Shown here: piece after piece, positions 1-7,358 of the stretch
Numbering within the stretch: position 1 is the first letter of the stretch
How the letters are laid out: each line of letters opens with the position of its first letter
Source: a virus
Direction: 5' to 3' (one strand)
DNA: 52,321 bases
Virus record (IMG/VR): IMGVR_UViG_3300032160_000011
Location: 1 to 52,321 of that record
Notes under the pieces: generated by a model
What the model was told of the DNA's origin: nothing
Databases searched by the model: none
The model's input: only the letters and a program-made list of their open reading frames with translations
Position numbers and translations under genes: made by a program

Positions 1-120
1 AGGGCCTGGGGAAGGTCCTAGGCCCTGGGGAAAAGGTCCCTAGGCCCTGGGGAAAAGGTCCCTAGGCCCTGGGGAAAAGGTCCCTAGGCCCTGGGGAAGG
101 TCCCTAGGCCCTGGGGAAGG
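1..120. repeat. Tandem repeat, about six 20-22 bp units
   Basis: CCTAGG recurs at 17, 39, 61, 83 and 103, a period of 22 bp (20 bp for the last unit), after a partial unit at 1-16. Each unit reads roughly CCTAGGCCCTGGGGAAAAGGT. The array ends just before the first + strand gene. The last unit runs into GGTAGAAAA, and this combination recurs almost exactly on the - strand at 29479-29503 upstream of another phage gene, so the array may be regulatory. There are no spacers of unique sequence, so it is not a CRISPR. Confidence 0.85.
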
Positions 121-181: not shown

Positions 182-415
182 TTGCTCGGCCCAGGAACCC
201 AGGTGTACTGGCGGCCGGACAACGTGCCCTGCAAATTGCCATTGAGTGATAAGGATTGTGCCAGGGCCATTCACGTCTCGACACCGGAAGATGTGAGCGC
301 GGCAATCGCTGGGCTAGGCCGCGATGCGATGATGGCTGAGAGCCGCGGTGATCACGTTGACGTGGCGGCTGCTCGCCAGCGGATCGTAGCGCTGAGAGAG
401 GTAGTGACAACGTGA
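182..415 (+). CDS. Small hypothetical protein, first gene of the modification operon
   Basis: A 77-residue protein with a TTG start. A GGAG motif at 167-170 lies 11 nt upstream, and the stop overlaps the GTG start of the next gene (GTGA), as expected for translational coupling. No family is recognised. The N-terminal part resembles a short beta-strand segment (GTQVYWRPD), and the C-terminal half is helical with Ala and Arg, ending RQRIVALREV. The overlap and the SD motif are the main reasons to accept it. An upstream alternative start cannot be excluded. Confidence 0.55.
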   Translation: MLGPGTQVYWRPDNVPCKLPLSDKDCARAIHVSTPEDVSAAIAGLGRDAMMAESRGDHVDVAAARQRIVALREVVTT

Positions 416-2739
416 TTCCCATCTTCATCCTAAGTTATAACCGTGCTGGGAACACCCGTACCACGAAGTTGCTTGACGCATGTGGGGTGACCGGCTACAA
501 GGTCGTCGTCAGACCAAGTCAGTACGACGATTATGCGCGGTACCTTAGGCGAGAGAATCTGCTCAAGCTGGACGCCGAGGAGGGGCTTAGTTACGCTCGA
601 GAGTTCATCCGAAAGCGAGTCAAACGCGGTGAGTGGTGCCTTCACATGGACGACAATGTGCTGGGCTTCTACGTGTGTGATGAGAAATTCTACCAAGCAT
701 ATGACAACTTCGAGCGTGGAGAAGGTGGACTGACTGAGATCAATCGACGGTGGGACCCCATCATAAAGAACCCACCAGGAAAAGATTTTGCAACGTTCTA
801 TCGAATCATCGTTCAAGATACCATGCGCGAAGCCGACAAACGTGGTGCCGTGTTGTGTGGATTTACCGCACAGAACGCTGCGGCAATGCGTCCTCATAAG
901 TGGATGGACGTCGGCTACGTATGTGGCAAGGTGATGCTCATGAAGAACGTTGGCTTTCCGTGGCGCCACATTTCTGTCAGCACTGGCGAGGACTACGCGC
1001 TTACCGCGGCACATCTTCTCGAATTTGGCCGCGTGCTGATCAACGGGTGGGGGCATCCTCGTCGGAAGCATTACGCACCTGGTGGCTGTGGCACTTACGA
1101 GGAGCGGCTCCCGGAGATGATCAGAACAAGTGCTGAGTTAATGGAACGCTACCCTGGCCTGCTGCGTATGAAAACGCCAGGACCGCGTGGCATCGAAAGA
1201 TTCGAGGGTGAGCTTCGTCTTCGCCTTCACACCGTAGAACAGATCGCTAAGTGGCGCGCCAACTTCGGAAAAGAGCCACAGGTGAGTACGCATGACAGCA
1301 CACCGCACGTTGCAGAGAAAAACAAGGGGATGAACGTCGTTACGATCAACACCTACGGTGGGTCACTCCTTCTTGGGGCAAAGATGATCAAGGCAAACAT
1401 CATTGCGACCATGGAAGATACCGGCTATGGGTCGAAGTTGCAAGCGCTGAACTTTCCAGCCGTACCACGCTATGAGCGACTGGCTGACTGGCCGGAAAGG
1501 TTTGCCATTCCCTGGTCAACGATCAACGTAATCGCTCATCCCCCATGCAAATCGTTTAGCTTGATGTCAGCGAGTTGTAAAAATAATCGTGGTACGGAAT
1601 CGGAAGGATTCCAGTGCCACCGCAACGTTATCAATTACTCCCTGGGACATCACTGCCGCAGTCTGGCCATCGAGTCCGTGCCCGGCGCCTACGAGGGTGG
1701 ACACGAGGCTTATGAAGAACTTGCCAGGCAGTACAGGTATCGAGTAACTTATATCACGCTTAACGCGGTCAGCTTCGGAATACCACAGTGGCGCCCACGG
1801 GTTTGGATTCTCTTTCACCATACGAAACAATTTCGCGTTGAGTTGAAACCGCGCTACACCTTGCTTCGTGATGTGCTGAACCCAGGAAAGAATCCAGTGC
1901 CATTGTTCAGCTGCACAAAGACCTTATACGAAAAAACCCGCACGGTGTTGAAGGGGACACATCCTCGAGGACACATCTTTTCATTGCTTCGTCAGCACTT
2001 CGGTTTATCAAGCGACGAAGAACTAAGAGCGAAGTTTCCTGACGATACGAAGGGTTATCTTTCCGGTTACGTCAGGTTCCTGGACCCTGACGGGTTTGCC
2101 ACCACGCTCTTGGGCGACACCTCTTGGGCCGTCGATGATCGCCTTCTTACCATCGAAGAGTACTGCGGCATCATGGGGTTTCCACGCGACTATAAGTGGA
2201 ATCTTAGCGAATCGCCAAACAACGCCAACAACGCGCGTGCCTACTTGTCGCGTGGTGTCTGCCCTCCTATCGCCGCCTGGATTTTGAAGACCCTCGATCG
2301 CAACACATCAGGGTGGGCAGGTACGTTCACACACGAAGAAGCTGACTTTGGTGGAGTCATCGACCTTTGTCCGAAAAAGGCGGACGCCCTGGCCATAGCA
2401 CGTGGTGAGAAATTACCGCCGAAACTAACGCCTCAGCGCGTACAACCTGCGCTGCCGTTTGGCGCGGTGATCAAGGCGCGGGAGACGCCTCCAATTCCTC
2501 GAGCACATCGCTACACACTCATTGACGAGTCGCGAGCCTACGCGCCAGGGTCGCCCCAGGCTGAGTTTATCATAACCGCGCTGAAGAAAGAGGGGCGACG
2601 TGGTTTGAACCGCCACGAGGTCGTGGCCAAGGCCATCGCCGACCCGGTAAGATTCCCGACCAACCAGCCACACGATCGCGCCGTTGGGTTCTGGCTATCA
2701 AAGTTAAAGGGGCAGGGCGCCTTGAGGTTCGCGGAATGA
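412..2739 (+). CDS. Glycosyltransferase fused to a cytosine-C5 methyltransferase-like domain
   Basis: A 775-residue bifunctional enzyme. Residues 1-260 resemble the TET-associated glycosyltransferase (TAGT) group found in phage base-modification loci: opening IFILSYNRAGNT, a DDN motif in CLHMDDNV near residue 79, then a GEDYAL block. Residues 300-630 resemble a cytosine-C5 methyltransferase: motif IV HPPCKSFS with candidate catalytic Cys379, motif VI as ESV (usually ENV), motif VIII IPQWRPRVW, and motif X near LTIEEYCGIMGFP. The AdoMet-binding motif I is divergent (NTYGGSLLLGA instead of FxGxGG). The last 130 residues are helical with a wHTH-like look. It starts with GTG overlapping the previous stop. 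It probably flips and decorates cytosine or hydroxymethylcytosine in phage DNA. The order of reactions and the sugar are unknown. Confidence 0.8.
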   Translation: MIPIFILSYNRAGNTRTTKLLDACGVTGYKVVVRPSQYDDYARYLRRENLLKLDAEEGLSYAREFIRKRVKRGEWCLHMDDNVLGFYVCDEKFYQAYDNFERGEGGLTEINRRWDPIIKNPPGKDFATFYRIIVQDTMREADKRGAVLCGFTAQNAAAMRPHKWMDVGYVCGKVMLMKNVGFPWRHISVSTGEDYALTAAHLLEFGRVLINGWGHPRRKHYAPGGCGTYEERLPEMIRTSAELMERYPGLLRMKTPGPRGIERFEGELRLRLHTVEQIAKWRANFGKEPQVSTHDSTPHVAEKNKGMNVVTINTYGGSLLLGAKMIKANIIATMEDTGYGSKLQALNFPAVPRYERLADWPERFAIPWSTINVIAHPPCKSFSLMSASCKNNRGTESEGFQCHRNVINYSLGHHCRSLAIESVPGAYEGGHEAYEELARQYRYRVTYITLNAVSFGIPQWRPRVWILFHHTKQFRVELKPRYTLLRDVLNPGKNPVPLFSCTKTLYEKTRTVLKGTHPRGHIFSLLRQHFGLSSDEELRAKFPDDTKGYLSGYVRFLDPDGFATTLLGDTSWAVDDRLLTIEEYCGIMGFPRDYKWNLSESPNNANNARAYLSRGVCPPIAAWILKTLDRNTSGWAGTFTHEEADFGGVIDLCPKKADALAIARGEKLPPKLTPQRVQPALPFGAVIKARETPPIPRAHRYTLIDESRAYAPGSPQAEFIITALKKEGRRGLNRHEVVAKAIADPVRFPTNQPHDRAVGFWLSKLKGQGALRFAE

Positions 2740-2751
2740 AAGGAGAAGCTT

Positions 2752-2961
2752 ATGCAACTAGGAATGTTTGATCACGCACAGTTTCCAGAACGTATTGCAC
2801 CAGGTGGGTGTTCTTGGTGCGGAGGATCATTACGTGTTCGCATACAGAATGATGGTGGTGAAGTTCGCTATTACGACTGCGATCATTGCAACGGTACTGG
2901 CGTTGAACCACCGTCAATGTGGCAACTAATCAAATCATTTTTCAATGATCGCTCACAATGA
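2752..2961 (+). CDS. Small zinc-ribbon protein
   Basis: A 69-residue protein preceded by AAAGGAG 6-8 nt upstream of the ATG. Two pairs of cysteines, CSWC near residue 20 and CDHC near residue 43 with an NGTG turn, form a likely zinc ribbon like the small DnaJ-type zinc knuckles common in phages. The C-terminus is a short amphipathic helix. Its stop overlaps the kinase start (ATGA), so it belongs to the operon. Function unknown; it could be an accessory subunit of the neighbouring enzymes. Confidence 0.75.
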   Translation: MQLGMFDHAQFPERIAPGGCSWCGGSLRVRIQNDGGEVRYYDCDHCNGTGVEPPSMWQLIKSFFNDRSQ

Positions 2962-3860
2962 CGACAATAACAAAGGTGATCATCCTGGAAGGACCGGACG
3001 GCTCGGGAAAGTCTACCCTTGCCGCCCGGTTACGCGATCAACACGGTTACCAGATCGTCAAGTTTGGGCCGCCACGCCCCAGGGAGGACATGCTGGTCAC
3101 TTACACCAACTCGCTGCTCACAGCGATCGCCAGCAAGCGGCCAACGGTCATCGATAGGCATTATCTCGGTGAGTCCGTCTACGGTCCACTGCTCAGGGGC
3201 GAGGACAGACTCGGGGCTCAGGGGCGTGATCTCATCGAGCGGCTCATCGCTGCGCGTGGGGTGAGGCTGATCATCTGTAGCCCACCGTGGAAGACGTTAG
3301 TAAAAGCGTGGAAAGCCAAGGACGACCTGCTCAAGCGGGTGGATCAGCTCTGTCATGTTCGGGCCGCCTACCTGGCAGAAGCGAAGAGATTACACCTGGT
3401 GGTTTATGATTGGACCCAGGGGCAGCCACCCAGCCTTGAGACCACACCTACGCTGCCTGAGGGGGTGACAGGGTACCAGGAAGCTGATACCCTCTGGGTG
3501 GGTGAACGGCCAGGCAAGAAACATGTTAAGTGGGACCTGCCCTTTCACGATACAACCAACTCGGCCCGTTACCTTTGGGAATCACTCCAGGGTGTCAGGG
3601 GGTGGCGGGAACGGCGTGGGGCCTGGACCAATGCCTGGGACGCCGAGGGAGAGCCTAGAGACCTGTTCGGGATCGTTAGCGCGCTGCCCAAGGTGACACG
3701 GGTGATCCCGTTGGGAGACGCAGCTACTGATGTCTGCAATCATATGAGATTGGACCTGGTTTGGCAGATCATGCCCATGCCACACCCCCAGTACTGGCGG
3801 CGATTCCATCATCACGATCAGAAAGGTTATACCGCGCTGCTGGAGGCGGCGCTGCGATGA
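2958..3860 (+). CDS. Nucleotide kinase fused to a uracil-DNA-glycosylase-like domain
   Basis: A 300-residue protein. Residues 1-150 are a P-loop kinase of the thymidylate/dNMP kinase type: Walker A in EGPDGSGKSTLAARL near residue 10, and a DRHYLGESVYG block near residue 68 typical of nucleotide-binding kinases. Residues 160-300 carry motifs like the uracil-DNA glycosylase superfamily: WVGERPG (compare GEAPG), TNAWD, VIPLGDAA, and MPHPQYWRRF in the place of the HPS loop. The kinase would phosphorylate (hydroxymethyl-)dCMP. The second domain could recognise a modified base or nucleotide. The kinase assignment is firm; the UDG-like one is a motif-based inference. ATGA overlaps occur on both sides. 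Confidence 0.75.
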   Translation: MTTITKVIILEGPDGSGKSTLAARLRDQHGYQIVKFGPPRPREDMLVTYTNSLLTAIASKRPTVIDRHYLGESVYGPLLRGEDRLGAQGRDLIERLIAARGVRLIICSPPWKTLVKAWKAKDDLLKRVDQLCHVRAAYLAEAKRLHLVVYDWTQGQPPSLETTPTLPEGVTGYQEADTLWVGERPGKKHVKWDLPFHDTTNSARYLWESLQGVRGWRERRGAWTNAWDAEGEPRDLFGIVSALPKVTRVIPLGDAATDVCNHMRLDLVWQIMPMPHPQYWRRFHHHDQKGYTALLEAALR

Positions 3861-4687
3861 GATACGACAACTTTGCGTTAGCCTGGTTCGACCTGCTCTA
3901 CTCGCTCTATCACACCGGGAAGCCGGTATCACCTCGTGGGTTCGAGACCCACGAGCTCATCGGTGTGAAGGTGCATGTCACGGACCTTACCCAGAACATC
4001 CTCGTCCATCCGGCCAGGGCACTCAACTACCGCTTCATGATCGCCGAGTGGCTTTGGATCGCGGCGTATCGCAATGACGTCGCCACCTTGGCCAGGTACA
4101 ACAAGAAGATGGCAGAATTCTCTGACGACGGGGTGACCCTGGCTGGCGCCTACGGACCGCGGATGGCAGACCAAGTGGATTATCTCCTGGAGCAGCTCAA
4201 GAAGCCAGTGTCGCGCCAGGCGGTGGCGACCATCTGGCGGCCGTGCCCAGCACCGTCGAAGGATATTCCTTGCACGGTGGCGTGGCAATTACTCGCCAGG
4301 GAGGGAAAACTTCACGGAATCGTGACGATGAGAAGTTCTGACGTGTGGCTGGGATTGCCGTACGATTTTCACGCGTTCACCCAGCTCACTTCCGGGGTGG
4401 CTGGTGAGATGAATCTGGAACCAGGCGGTTTGACCTTCAACCTTGGCAGTTCGCACTTGTACGACCGGGACCGGGAGAAAGCTTTGACCGTGTTGAGCCG
4501 GCCTGACGAGCTGCGATGTGTGCGATCGCCGCGGCTGCCTGGCAGGCCGCCGGCGGACGCAATCCTCGATTGGAGCGATGATCTGGTTCATCCCTGGTCG
4601 GTTTACCGCGACGTGCTCAAGGCGACGACGAGCCTGGAAGCGCTGAACAGATTGGAGAATCTCGATGCTGCAACGACCAAGCCTTGA
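3857..4687 (+). CDS. Thymidylate-synthase-family enzyme, probable dCMP hydroxymethylase
   Basis: A 276-residue protein of the ThyA/deoxynucleotide hydroxymethylase family, which transfers a C1 unit from methylenetetrahydrofolate to pyrimidine C5. The nucleophile is Cys139 (DIPCTVAW). The phosphate/base-binding block is RSSDVWLGLPYDF with Arg159 and Asp162, and the HxY pair is His200/Tyr202. Asp170 stands where thymidylate synthase has the Asn that reads dUMP. In T4 dCMP hydroxymethylase and in MilA an Asp at this place selects cytosine, so 5-hydroxymethyl-dCMP is the predicted product. The start chosen is the ATG overlapping the kinase stop. The length matches the family. Confidence 0.82.
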   Translation: MRYDNFALAWFDLLYSLYHTGKPVSPRGFETHELIGVKVHVTDLTQNILVHPARALNYRFMIAEWLWIAAYRNDVATLARYNKKMAEFSDDGVTLAGAYGPRMADQVDYLLEQLKKPVSRQAVATIWRPCPAPSKDIPCTVAWQLLAREGKLHGIVTMRSSDVWLGLPYDFHAFTQLTSGVAGEMNLEPGGLTFNLGSSHLYDRDREKALTVLSRPDELRCVRSPRLPGRPPADAILDWSDDLVHPWSVYRDVLKATTSLEALNRLENLDAATTKP

Positions 4688-5621
4688 CGATTACTACCTC
4701 GCCCTGCTACCCCTCATCGCGTCCCGGGCGACCTGCCCTCGGCGCCGGGTGGCGGCGATCCTGGTCGATGCCGGTGGGAAGCTGGTGGCCATCGGTTATA
4801 ACGGTGTTCCGAGTAAAATGCCTCACTGCATCGATACACCGTGCCCTGGAGCGATAGACCAGCCTGGGGACACGACCAGGTGCATTGCAATCCACGCTGA
4901 GATGAACGCTTTATCCCAGGCAAGGGCCTCTCGCCGCTTGCCGCATACACTCTACTGCAGCACCACGCCGTGCTTCGACTGCGCCAAGCTCCTCGTCACT
5001 GAGGGTGTGAAGCGGGTGGTGGCTAGGGGCGAGTACGCTGACCGGCGTGGGGTGGACCTGCTGGGCCAGGCAGGCATCAACGTCGAGATCATCACCACAA
5101 GGGAAGAAGAAGCTGTGAGCTATCCACATCTTAGTACCGAGTGCCAGGAGCACCACGACCTGGTGAGGGACTTTCACAACGTCGCCGGAATGCGGCCGAC
5201 GATCATCTGCCTTTGCGGATCGACGAGGTTCCGCGATCAATTTGCACAGGCCAACTATCGAGAGACGCTAGCTGGCAACATCGTCCTGAGCGTGGGATTC
5301 TACGTTCACATCGCGGATGAATGCCCTAACTGCGACGCATCGCAGAGCTTCGCGGAGGAGCAGGGAGCGAAAGGCCAGCAGGGAAAGTGCTGGCAGTGCG
5401 GCGCTGACCTGGGCTGTACACCGAAACAGAAGATCGCCCTCGACAAGCTGCACAAGTGGAAGATAGACCTCTGCGACGAGGTCTTCGTCCTCAACGTGGG
5501 AGGCTATGTCGGCGACTCGACGCGATCCGAGATCGCCTACGCCGTCGCTCGCGGCAAACCGGTACGGTACCTGGAGGTCGTCAATACTGCCGACGGTGTA
5601 AAGGAGAAAGAGGTAGAATGA
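4665..5621 (+). CDS. dCMP deaminase fused to a deoxyribosyltransferase-like domain
   Basis: A 318-residue protein. Residues 1-150 are a zinc-dependent dCMP/cytidine deaminase: HAE at 77-79 in CIAIHAEMNAL and PCFDC with Cys103/Cys106. It would turn dCMP into dUMP, removing unmodified cytosine nucleotide and feeding dTMP synthesis. Residues 170-308 resemble nucleoside 2-deoxyribosyltransferases: ICLCGSTRFRDQF at the start, then VGDSTRSEIAYAVARGKPV. This half contains an inserted pair of cysteine motifs (CPNC and CWQC) that may bind zinc. The start overlaps the hydroxymethylase gene by 23 nt and has GGAG upstream. Confidence 0.85.
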   Translation: MLQRPSLDDYYLALLPLIASRATCPRRRVAAILVDAGGKLVAIGYNGVPSKMPHCIDTPCPGAIDQPGDTTRCIAIHAEMNALSQARASRRLPHTLYCSTTPCFDCAKLLVTEGVKRVVARGEYADRRGVDLLGQAGINVEIITTREEEAVSYPHLSTECQEHHDLVRDFHNVAGMRPTIICLCGSTRFRDQFAQANYRETLAGNIVLSVGFYVHIADECPNCDASQSFAEEQGAKGQQGKCWQCGADLGCTPKQKIALDKLHKWKIDLCDEVFVLNVGGYVGDSTRSEIAYAVARGKPVRYLEVVNTADGVKEKEVE

Positions 5622-5935
5622 AATTTGAACTCACGCTTCCAGATCAGGTGATCAGCGAAGAACCGGAGATGAAGTGTTTCCTGGAAGCACTGCAACTCCT
5701 GGTAAACAGAATGGCAACGTCGCACTTCAAATACGGTTGCATGAGTGACACTTACCCGGATAACGCGCATGCGATAGACTCTGCGCAAAAACGCATGACG
5801 ATGTACAGCGCTTCTGGCAACACTGAAAATTGTTTGGACGCGGCAAATTTCTTGATCATCGAGCATCTGTTTCCGTCGCATCACACGGCTCACTTCAGAG
5901 CGCAAAGCTCAAAGGAATCACCAGGCATAGTCTAG
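5618..5935 (+). CDS. Small hypothetical phage protein
   Basis: A 105-residue protein. The ATG at 5618 was chosen because it follows AAGGAG and AGG motifs and overlaps the stop of the deaminase gene; a longer reading frame upstream is merely open. The sequence is acidic and helical in the middle (residues 15-45), followed by a Gly/Asn-rich stretch and FLIIEHLFPSH. I do not recognise a family. Its place between the deaminase and a pyrophosphohydrolase suggests a role in nucleotide handling, but nothing in the sequence shows it. Confidence 0.7.
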   Translation: MKFELTLPDQVISEEPEMKCFLEALQLLVNRMATSHFKYGCMSDTYPDNAHAIDSAQKRMTMYSASGNTENCLDAANFLIIEHLFPSHHTAHFRAQSSKESPGIV

Positions 5936-5957
5936 AAGGAAGAAAAGGAGAAAGGCA

Positions 5958-6584
5958 ATGACCACAAGTGAAACGGTTGCCGAGTTCATGCGGCATATCG
6001 GGATGGAAACTCACACCATGCCAGCGAAGCGGCCACTAGAGGTTGGTGAAACCAGGGTGCGGATGATCGTCGAGGAGTTTGCCGAGACGATCGTCGCCGC
6101 TAACGATGGCAATATCATCGAGCTTGCCGATGGCCTGGCTGACCTGCTCTACGTTATCGTCGGTGCTGGGGTCGCCTACGGTGCTGAGGTGCCGATAGAA
6201 TTCATCTCACCGAGCATTACACCGTATCGTCCCAGTGCGATGTCTATCATCAGGTTCACGCGCGCTTACGCTGAACAGCTCGTAGATCTTACCATCGCCA
6301 TCGCTAATGACAGCATGCGACATCTCGGTGACGCGCTGGCCTTGCTTGGTGGGGTGGTGACAGCCTACGCCGCAGTATGGGGCATGCCGTTACGAGAGCT
6401 GTTCATCGAAGTCCATCGTTCCAACATGAGCAAAAACCCGGGGCAGATCATCGGCGCTGCCAAGTACGGGCCTGGTGGTGGGAAGGGGCCAACCTACTCG
6501 CCGCCGGACATCGCTGGCATCCTGGCTAAGGCCCGGGAACAGATCACCGTAACGGCCGCGAGAACCCAGTCCCATAGGCCTTGA
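5958..6584 (+). CDS. MazG-like nucleotide pyrophosphohydrolase
   Basis: A 208-residue all-alpha NTP pyrophosphohydrolase-type protein. The metal-binding signature is visible as EEFAET (Glu39, Glu40, Glu43) and ELADGLADLLYV (Glu55, Asp58, Asp62), as in MazG and dCTPase/dUTPase helical families. The part around 130-175 (EVHRSNMSKNPG) also matches the end of this fold. A segment of about 45 residues between helices makes it longer than a minimal MazG domain. In this operon a plausible job is to hydrolyse dCTP to dCMP, which feeds the hydroxymethylase and keeps unmodified cytosine out of phage DNA. Substrate choice is inferred. The SD is AAGGAG. Confidence 0.78.
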   Translation: MTTSETVAEFMRHIGMETHTMPAKRPLEVGETRVRMIVEEFAETIVAANDGNIIELADGLADLLYVIVGAGVAYGAEVPIEFISPSITPYRPSAMSIIRFTRAYAEQLVDLTIAIANDSMRHLGDALALLGGVVTAYAAVWGMPLRELFIEVHRSNMSKNPGQIIGAAKYGPGGGKGPTYSPPDIAGILAKAREQITVTAARTQSHRP

Positions 6585-6713
6585 AATGCCCTCACCGAAC
6601 CACCCAGGATGCCCTCAGAACTGCAGATAGGACCTCGGCCTAGGTTTACCCAACCTGGGTCTGTTAATTCAATAGGTAAACTAAGTTCAATACAGAAATT
6701 TGCAAAACCAGAC

Positions 6714-6754
6714 GCAAAAATGGCCCTCAGCGCCAGCAACGCGGCACTGAGGGC
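6714..6754 (-). terminator. Rho-independent terminator for the late operon
   Basis: GCCCTCAG at 6723-6730 and CTGAGGGC at 6747-6754 form a perfect 8 bp stem. Read on the - strand it is followed by CCATTTTTGC, giving the T-run of an intrinsic terminator at the end of the long late transcript. The + strand operon ends at 6584, so this is the meeting point of two convergent transcription units. Nearby GTTTACC/GGTAAAC (6644-6681) is a weaker inverted repeat that might act on the + strand. Confidence 0.75.
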
Positions 6755-6773
6755 GCACAAAAGTTGAGTGAAC

Positions 6774-7358
6774 TTACTTGATCTGCTCTGCCGCAGCTTT
6801 CAACGCCGCGCGTCGTGCGATCATTCGTTTCATGGCAACGCTCTTCGCTGCGCTGGGGTTGAAGTAATAGGCCAGGCCCGTGGTCATCTCAACAGCGTTC
6901 TTCGATCCTACGCGCAGGTAGTGGAAGTCGATCGTTGACCACTCCAGGTTTGGCGTGATCCGGTAGGAAGCCCCACCGCCGGCCAGGAGCACCACCTGGT
7001 TCCCAACGGTGAAGGTAGCGACACCACCTGCGCCCTGGATGAACAATTGAAAGGAACTTGCAGGCAGGTTGGTCTTGTTCATCAGCGATGAGATGTCTGG
7101 TGTCACCCTGATCCCGCCAAGGTATGCGTTAAACGGTGTAGCTGTGATCTCATGACCTTCAAGAGAGAGGTTACTACCCTTGACCGTCCCCCAATCGATA
7201 AGATCCAGGGACTCCGTGGTGTGTGTTGCCGCACCCCATGACCCGCCATAGTTCAGCGCCGTCGCCTCAGCGCTCGTTGAAAATACTAGGCCTGACTGTG
7301 CGACAGCAGGGAGACAAAAAAGCAGAGCGATGCTCAGAACACTAAGCAACTTGTTCAT
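6774..7358 (-). CDS. Secreted or outer-membrane-like protein, last late gene
   Basis: About 194 residues from the ATG at 7358. A GTG four codons upstream is possible, but the GGGGGGA motif favours 7358. A classical signal peptide (NKLLSVLSIALLFCLPAVAQ) ends in AVA before Gln. The rest is rich in alternating polar and hydrophobic residues like a small beta-barrel or porin-like protein, with a basic Ala/Lys tail. No family is assigned. Its place after the lysis genes suggests a surface or cargo function, such as superinfection control. Confidence 0.7.
   Translation of the reverse strand: MNKLLSVLSIALLFCLPAVAQSGLVFSTSAEATALNYGGSWGAATHTTESLDLIDWGTVKGSNLSLEGHEITATPFNAYLGGIRVTPDISSLMNKTNLPASSFQLFIQGAGGVATFTVGNQVVLLAGGGASYRITPNLEWSTIDFHYLRVGSKNAVEMTTGLAYYFNPSAAKSVAMKRMIARRAALKAAAEQIK

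Follow-up and report, generated by a model that had tools for sequence, protein, structure and literature searches.

Positions 182-6584 of IMG/VR virus record IMGVR_UViG_3300032160_000011, from an uncultured tailed phage, hold a compact cassette of genes that all lie on the plus strand and whose neighbouring stop and start codons mostly overlap (Table 1); the window referred to below is this whole record of 52,321 bases. Our results indicate that the cassette probably serves to replace the cytosine of phage DNA with hydroxymethylcytosine (hmC) and then to add a sugar, as a variant of the T-even type. The five enzymes named in the initial annotation, namely a thymidylate synthase (TS)-family enzyme, a MazG-like pyrophosphohydrolase, a deoxycytidine monophosphate (dCMP) deaminase, a nucleotide kinase and a fusion of a glycosyltransferase with a C5-cytosine-methyltransferase (C5-MTase), were all recovered by family matches at the positions given there. 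The gene order recurs in two related contigs (L018 and L003) and partially on 67 contigs, so that the cassette is not a chance arrangement.

The linear record of 52,321 bases is probably a fragment. No replication genes were found among the window proteins scanned and, for a linear fragment of 52 kb that lacks them, the absence of a gene says nothing about the phage as a whole.

Table 1. Features of the cassette and of the adjoining contig edge (positions in the window)
Feature	Positions	Strand	Basis or remark
Whole cassette	182-6584	+	
Tandem repeat, 22 bp, 5.6 copies	1-118		Tandem Repeats Finder; contig edge, adjoins cassette
Small open reading frame, 77 residues, without family match	182-415	+	First cassette gene as delimited in the initial annotation
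TAGT glycosyltransferase domain, N-terminal part of 775-residue fusion	412-1320	+	PF20691, phrog_842
Divergent C5-MTase domain and C-terminal helical tail	1330-2736	+	PF00145, AlphaFold2 (AF2), Foldseek
Zinc-ribbon-like protein, 69 residues	2752-2961	+	Weak Pfam/PHROG zinc-ribbon matches
Nucleoside monophosphate kinase (candidate hydroxymethyl-dCMP kinase) fused to uracil-DNA glycosylase (UDG)-fold-like domain	2958-3860	+	phrog_761, PF03167
Asp-type TS-family enzyme, predicted dCMP hydroxymethylase	3857-4687	+	PF00303
dCMP deaminase with C-terminal deoxyribosyltransferase-like domain	4665-5621	+	PF00383, phrog_174
Small protein, 105 residues, without family match	5618-5935	+	Reading frame only
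MazG/PRA-PH-type nucleotide pyrophosphohydrolase, candidate dCTPase	5958-6584	+	PF01503, phrog_671

A cytosine-type relative of thymidylate synthase

The product of the gene at position 3857 matches PF00303 (E 1.3e-22), and its segment GLPYDFHAF puts an aspartate exactly at E. coli Asn177. Alignment with reference enzymes thereby bears out the earlier claim of an Asp at the cytosine-selecting position, where ThyA and SPO1 gp29, a deoxyuridine monophosphate (dUMP) hydroxymethylase, retain Asn. In the same alignment Glu58, Cys146, Arg166, Ser167, Asp169, His207 and Tyr209, among them the catalytic Cys and the Arg/Ser phosphate site, are retained, and the three changes H147T, Q165M and N177D are those of T4 gp42 and MilA. 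MilA, the cytidine monophosphate (CMP) 5-hydroxymethylase of the mildiomycin pathway, is also the closest solved relative in the Protein Data Bank (PDB; E 1.8e-21, 34% over 241 residues), although it acts on CMP for an antibiotic rather than on dCMP for DNA and has Ala in place of S167. Asp177 is present in 80 of 84 TS-family open reading frames, the other four being those of an Asn-type contig (L002, counted twice), SPO1 and ThyA. Taken together, these features make it well supported, at the level of sequence, that the 3857 product prefers cytosine over uracil and probably hydroxymethylates it.

Asp177 sets cytosine specificity, however, and not the product, so that a relative of TS might form another C5 product on the mononucleotide, either 5-methyl-dCMP, as in Xp12, or 5-hydroxy-dCMP, as in RB69. 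Going by the title of a 1992 study by Liu and Santi (cited in PMC8670742), thymidylate synthase reportedly turns into a dCMP methylase when it carries N229D. The RB69 enzyme, which has 5-hydroxy-dCMP synthase activity (PMC13390438), likewise carries T147, M165 and D177, but has lost D169, G173 and Y209 (Asn and Val stand at 169 and 173), whereas all three are kept by the 3857 product, D169 and G173 being folate-site residues. The 3857 product thus looks like a folate-using hydroxymethylase, and RB69-type synthesis was rejected on these differences. In this regard, the nearest characterised enzyme, MilA, is a hydroxymethylase; W80 and W83 are absent from the 3857 product as they are from MilA and SPO1 gp29 (both hydroxymethylases), T4 gp42 aligning a Trp at W80; and the presence of a glycosyltransferase and other decorators implies a hydroxyl handle. 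We consider a different C5 product unlikely, hydroxymethyl rather than methyl being predicted from the likeness to MilA and gp42 and from the absence of W80.

In the TS tree the window sequence groups with that of L003, and T4 gp42 (on a very long branch) and MilA are unplaced. The TS of L004 (12706-13764) clusters with SPO1-type enzymes, yet has Asp177, which by its sequence is a second, independent Asn-to-Asp switch inside the same cassette type.

Nucleotide enzymes and a restriction-resistant relative

Directly upstream of the TS gene, as in most relatives, lies the gene for a P-loop nucleotide kinase (phrog_761, E 5.7e-13) whose C-terminal part (residues 175-288) is UDG-like (PF03167, E 0.0025, below the cut-off). 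Such a DNA-glycosylase-like part of an hmC kinase may perhaps serve nucleotide discrimination. Matches of the kinase to NACHT/AAA were dismissed as P-loop noise. The UDG-fold-like part (window 3470-3857) and gp29 of the Stenotrophomonas phage AXL3 (L011 5640-6002) both show the motifs GERPG... and HPQYWRRF. The dCMP deaminase matches PF00383 (E 9.6e-18) and phrog_174 (E 4.4e-43), and its C-terminal domain, without a Pfam match, is labelled deoxyribosyltransferase-like from a reading of its sequence. The MazG-like protein, which may act as a dCTPase, matches PF01503 (PRA-PH, E 2.6e-14) and phrog_671 (E 2.4e-23).

A TS scan of viral contigs gave 65 loci; duplicates were removed and the window and earlier loci added, leaving 67 contigs for tabulation. 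Kinase genes occur on 59 of them, dCMP deaminase on 41, MazG on 40, ThyX on 10, the C5-MTase on 16, a GT-B-family glycosyltransferase on 12, a SAM (S-adenosylmethionine) methyltransferase on 14 and TAGT on 2, counts that are lower bounds because the flanks were 8 kb and the contigs are fragmentary. ThyX is present in 8 of 25 related records, among them the nearest cassettes, L003 and L018, as well as L009 and AXL3, and deoxythymidine monophosphate (dTMP) therefore has a separate source there. L018 is a split twin of the window, with separate TAGT, C5-MTase, kinase, TS, deaminase, ThyX and MazG genes.

AXL3 carries the kinase-UDG fusion, an Asp-type TS, MazG, dCMP deaminase and ThyX, as does the Pseudoxanthomonas phage PW916 (checked in AXL3); unlike the window, these phages have a Methyltransf_23 SAM methyltransferase as candidate decorator, and neither TAGT nor a C5-MTase of the subfamily described below. 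Only 2 of 37 restriction enzymes cut AXL3 DNA, both at A/T-only sites, and the 35 with G/C in their sites fail (PMC7504290). The homologous genes were taken as dTMP synthesis by the authors of that study, and likewise as thymidylate metabolism in PW916 (PMC9414467). On such a reading, which the family-level names would allow and the gene set shared with the dTMP pathway would favour (PMC7504290, PMC9414467), the cassette would encode a normal TS, a dTMP kinase, a dCMP deaminase and MazG. Nevertheless, Asp occupies the pyrimidine-selecting site in the relatives of this type, the C-terminal PVAI of TS is absent, ThyX stands beside TS in several relatives and AXL3 DNA resists enzymes with G/C sites. 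Ordinary thymidylate metabolism was rejected on Asp177, the co-occurrence of ThyX and the AXL3 restriction data, and we regard it as extremely improbable. An Asp-type active site accounts for the resistance of AXL3 better than dTMP synthesis does, and the restriction resistance published for phages of the AXL3 type finds a possible explanation in the cassette.

In line with this notion, metagenome contigs selected for modified cytosine by MetaGPA carry TS, PRA-PH/MazG and dCMP deaminase together with a proven 5hmC carbamoyltransferase (PMC8670742), which differs as a decorator from the TAGT and C5-MTase of the window.

The TAGT domain and exchangeable decorators

The N-terminal part of the 775-residue fusion (412-2739) matches PF20691 at residues 2-86 (E 1.3e-7), scoring 32.3 bits against a curated cut-off of 27.5, with 36.9 for L018 and 35.8 for T6 ggt. 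The latter, by annotation the second hmC glucosyltransferase, falls in the same Pfam family and has the DD, ED and APGGC motifs in common with the window TAGT, which also matches phrog_842 (beta-glucosyl-HMC-alpha-glucosyltransferase, E 8.6e-11). TAGT homologues exist as separate genes in L018 (71% identity), L002 and L084. These sequence matches support the assignment of the domain as a DNA glycosyltransferase of a family that includes a known hmC glucosyltransferase; the sugar may be glucose or another.

Near TS in sister cassettes, a second decorator family occurs with a predicted GT-B fold (AF2 pLDDT 83), whose model matches the selenosugar synthase SenB and T4 beta-glucosyltransferase (E 4e-6 to 2e-5), and a third candidate is the Methyltransf_23 SAM methyltransferase of AXL3 and L009. 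From cassette to cassette the core thus stays the same, and it is the decorator that changes.

Two observations concern sugar supply and thymine. L006 has, at 6200-6964, a short UDP-glucose/GDP-mannose dehydrogenase-like gene beside its GT-B gene, which hints that this phage uses a uronic-acid donor. L002 (1986-6072) combines a separate TAGT, an Asn-type TS, a protein with the 5hmdU-DNA-kinase helical domain (PF18723, E 1e-45) and a radical-SAM/SPASM protein; together they may be responsible for a thymine hypermodification that bears a sugar.

A rebuilt C5-methyltransferase domain

Both domains of the glycosyltransferase/C5-methyltransferase fusion of the initial annotation are there (PF20691 and PF00145), but the methyltransferase domain was underplayed, as its cofactor pocket is rebuilt. 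The C5-METHYLTRANSFERASE domain matches PF00145 at residues 317-628 of the fusion (E 2.9e-9), its AF2 model has a pLDDT above 90 over most of its length, and Foldseek matches it to M.HhaI (E 1.9e-14). The base-attacking residues are intact in 30/30 members of the subfamily (the Cys of PPC, the motif VI Glu of ESV, and QxRxR). In contrast, the S-adenosylmethionine (AdoMet) pocket is altered in all members, FxGxGG having become YxGS and Asp60 being gone, and Trp41 is replaced by Asp in 28/30. At motif X, Asn304 has become Lys (20) or Arg (9, the window included) in each of the 29 members whose sequence extends that far, and the HMMER alignment that matches the subfamily Lys with HhaI N304 is free of gaps.

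The subfamily search found 29 contigs, 25 of which hold a PF00303 TS, Asp-type in every case; the four without TS are incomplete, at 13 to 43 kb. As a baseline, any TS match occurs in 2261 of 50,697 phage records (about 4.5%). A pattern-limited scan of 84,980 bacterial and archaeal genomes for prophages and hosts returned no relative, and tblastn against cultured phages gave no match for the fusion protein and, for the L006 protein, only a weak methylase of Gordonia phage GMA2. The subfamily has so far been seen in phages only, and is tied to Asp-type TS. We found no description of the rebuilt C5-MTase or of its tie to dCMP-hydroxymethylase-type enzymes in the open literature, subscription papers being outside the scope.

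Cytosines that are all hydroxymethylated leave no C5-H for a normal methylase, which places the domain outside the simple T4 scheme and, together with the altered pocket, casts doubt on an AdoMet-dependent role in forming 5-methylcytosine (5mC). Judging from these residues, the domain is unlikely to be a 5mC methylase of the ordinary kind. TAGT was named after its association with TET, and a route through 5mC can be envisaged in which an ordinary methylase forms 5mC, a TET enzyme encoded outside the window oxidises it, TAGT glycosylates the product and the TS relative is a side player. TET/TAGT phages do share the combination of TAGT and C5-MTase with the window, the PF00145 match is above its cut-off and a TET gene could lie outside the fragment. 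However, TET_JBP (PF12851) was absent from the window and 8 related records (0/9, all fragments), the AdoMet pocket residues are changed throughout the subfamily, an Asp-type TS accompanies the C5-MTase in 25/25 relatives that have a TS, and in L002 TAGT occurs without TET, beside a 5hmdU-DNA-kinase-like protein and a TS of the Asn type. This route is, in our judgement, very unlikely; unlike in TET/TAGT phages, the hydroxyl is expected to be introduced on the nucleotide, by the TS-type enzyme.

The basic residue at motif X suggests another comparison, with CmoX of Synechococcus phage S-B43 (PDB 8YF3), a C5-MTase-fold enzyme of phage DNA hypermodification. The same position corresponds to R350 of CmoX and to the engineered N374K of M.MpeI, which set the use of carboxy-SAM (PMC12783734). 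A CmoX-like domain would use host carboxy-SAM to form 5-carboxymethylcytosine at some cytosines, in addition to hmC or in its place, and the Lys or Arg of all 29 members is basic as in CmoX. Yet CmoA was found in 0/30 contigs (fragments, for which a host CmoA is possible; the S-B43 control was positive), F48 and D69, which also belong to the cofactor site of CmoX, are not conserved in the subfamily, and hmC in place of C would leave no C5-H to attack. S-B43 itself differs in keeping a canonical AdoMet pocket, in having CmoA and an amide ligase, and in lacking a PF00303 TS. Tempting as the Lys/Arg makes this assignment, we did not take it up, since neither CmoA nor the remaining cofactor residues are present, and we hold it improbable.

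What remains for the rebuilt domain may be to act on hmC, to carboxymethylate residual C or to serve as a base-flipping or targeting module. C5-MTases are known to attack hmC in vitro when thiols are supplied. As a tentative and rather doubtful proposal, the fold would attack C6 of hmC, expel the hydroxyl and join a carboxylate-bearing group, held by the Lys or Arg, to the C5 methylene, with no methylation taking place. If true, an hmC-attacking C5-MTase would represent a new class among the enzymes of DNA hypermodification, with the hydroxymethylase product as its substrate; some phages have it joined to a glycosyltransferase or to a SAM methyltransferase. L097 (6819-9341) encodes such a parallel to the TAGT fusion of the window, an 840-residue protein in which a SAM-methyltransferase decorator is fused to a C5-MTase-fold domain.

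The C-terminal tail of the window fusion (about 2500-2736; FPTNQPHDRA..GF.LSK..GAL.FA) recurs at the C-terminus of the protein at L004 8771-10243. As this protein is unrelated, the tail would be a mobile domain, possibly a DNA-binding one.

A proposed model of cytosine hypermodification

The glycosylated-hmC pathway of the initial annotation is supported by the cytosine-type TS, the set of enzymes for cleaning and phosphorylating nucleotides, and a TAGT domain of the hmC glucosyltransferase family. The order of steps and the part of the C5-MTase domain can be proposed as follows. The Asp-type TS would add CH2OH from methylenetetrahydrofolate to C5 of dCMP, the kinase and then the host would raise the resulting hydroxymethyl-dCMP towards its triphosphate, and the MazG-like enzyme and dCMP deaminase would lower dCTP and dCMP and supply dUMP for dTMP synthesis, which in several relatives would be carried out by a separate ThyX. 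The polymerase would insert hmC into DNA, where the TAGT domain would place a sugar on it. The fused C5-MTase-fold domain would act on the same DNA, probably flipping and attacking cytosine or hmC to bring about a second or targeted modification; its cofactor would be something other than plain AdoMet. Hypermodified cytosine protects the DNA of phages against restriction and CRISPR.

The T-even pathway (T4 gp42, dCTPase, gp1 kinase and alpha/beta-glucosyltransferases; T6 ggt) likewise has an Asp-type TS, a dCMP deaminase, a dNMP kinase, a nucleotide pyrophosphatase role and a DNA glycosyltransferase, T6 ggt falling in the TAGT family. It differs in that the window TS is only about 24% identical to gp42, MazG/PRA-PH stands in place of the T4 dCTPase, and there are two fusions, of the kinase with a UDG-like domain and of TAGT with a C5-MTase-fold protein. 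T-even-type cytosine hypermodification is already known; the other enzyme families and the fusions are new here. The different kinase, phosphohydrolase and glycosyltransferase families make it plausible that the pathway was assembled independently of T4, but the TS tree, which leaves T4 gp42 and MilA unplaced, does not settle the point.

Several points weigh against replacement of cytosine by glycosylated hmC. The phage is known from its sequence alone; polymerase, ThyX and sugar-nucleotide genes were not found in the window, itself a fragment; and a C5-MTase domain is unexpected if every C is hmC. The PF20691 match spans about half of the Pfam profile, and hhalign gave no significant alignment when four TAGTs were compared with T6 ggt by itself, so that the two are linked through their common Pfam/PHROG match and motifs. 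The AF2 model of TAGT is of low confidence (pLDDT <50 for much of the domain) and was too poor to be used for its fold. AXL3, with neither glycosyltransferase nor C5-MTase, backs the core only.

Our findings allow us to propose a mix-and-match family in which one nucleotide-level hmC core is combined with exchangeable DNA-level decorators, namely TAGT, beta-glucosyltransferase-like GT-B enzymes, SAM methyltransferases and the rebuilt C5-MTase. The last of these points to a DNA-base reaction not yet described, which is testable with single proteins.

Outer regions and small genes

The minus strand of the window carries the structural genes of a myovirus (terminase, portal, capsid, sheath and baseplate). 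The L003 contig, like the window, opens in a short tandem repeat (1-127) directly upstream of its cassette, and in both contigs the assembly probably broke at the repeat beside the cassette (window 1-118, L003 1-127). The 105-residue protein between the deaminase and MazG-like genes resembles by eye that of L006 5707-6066 (TGNTE..L..ANF).

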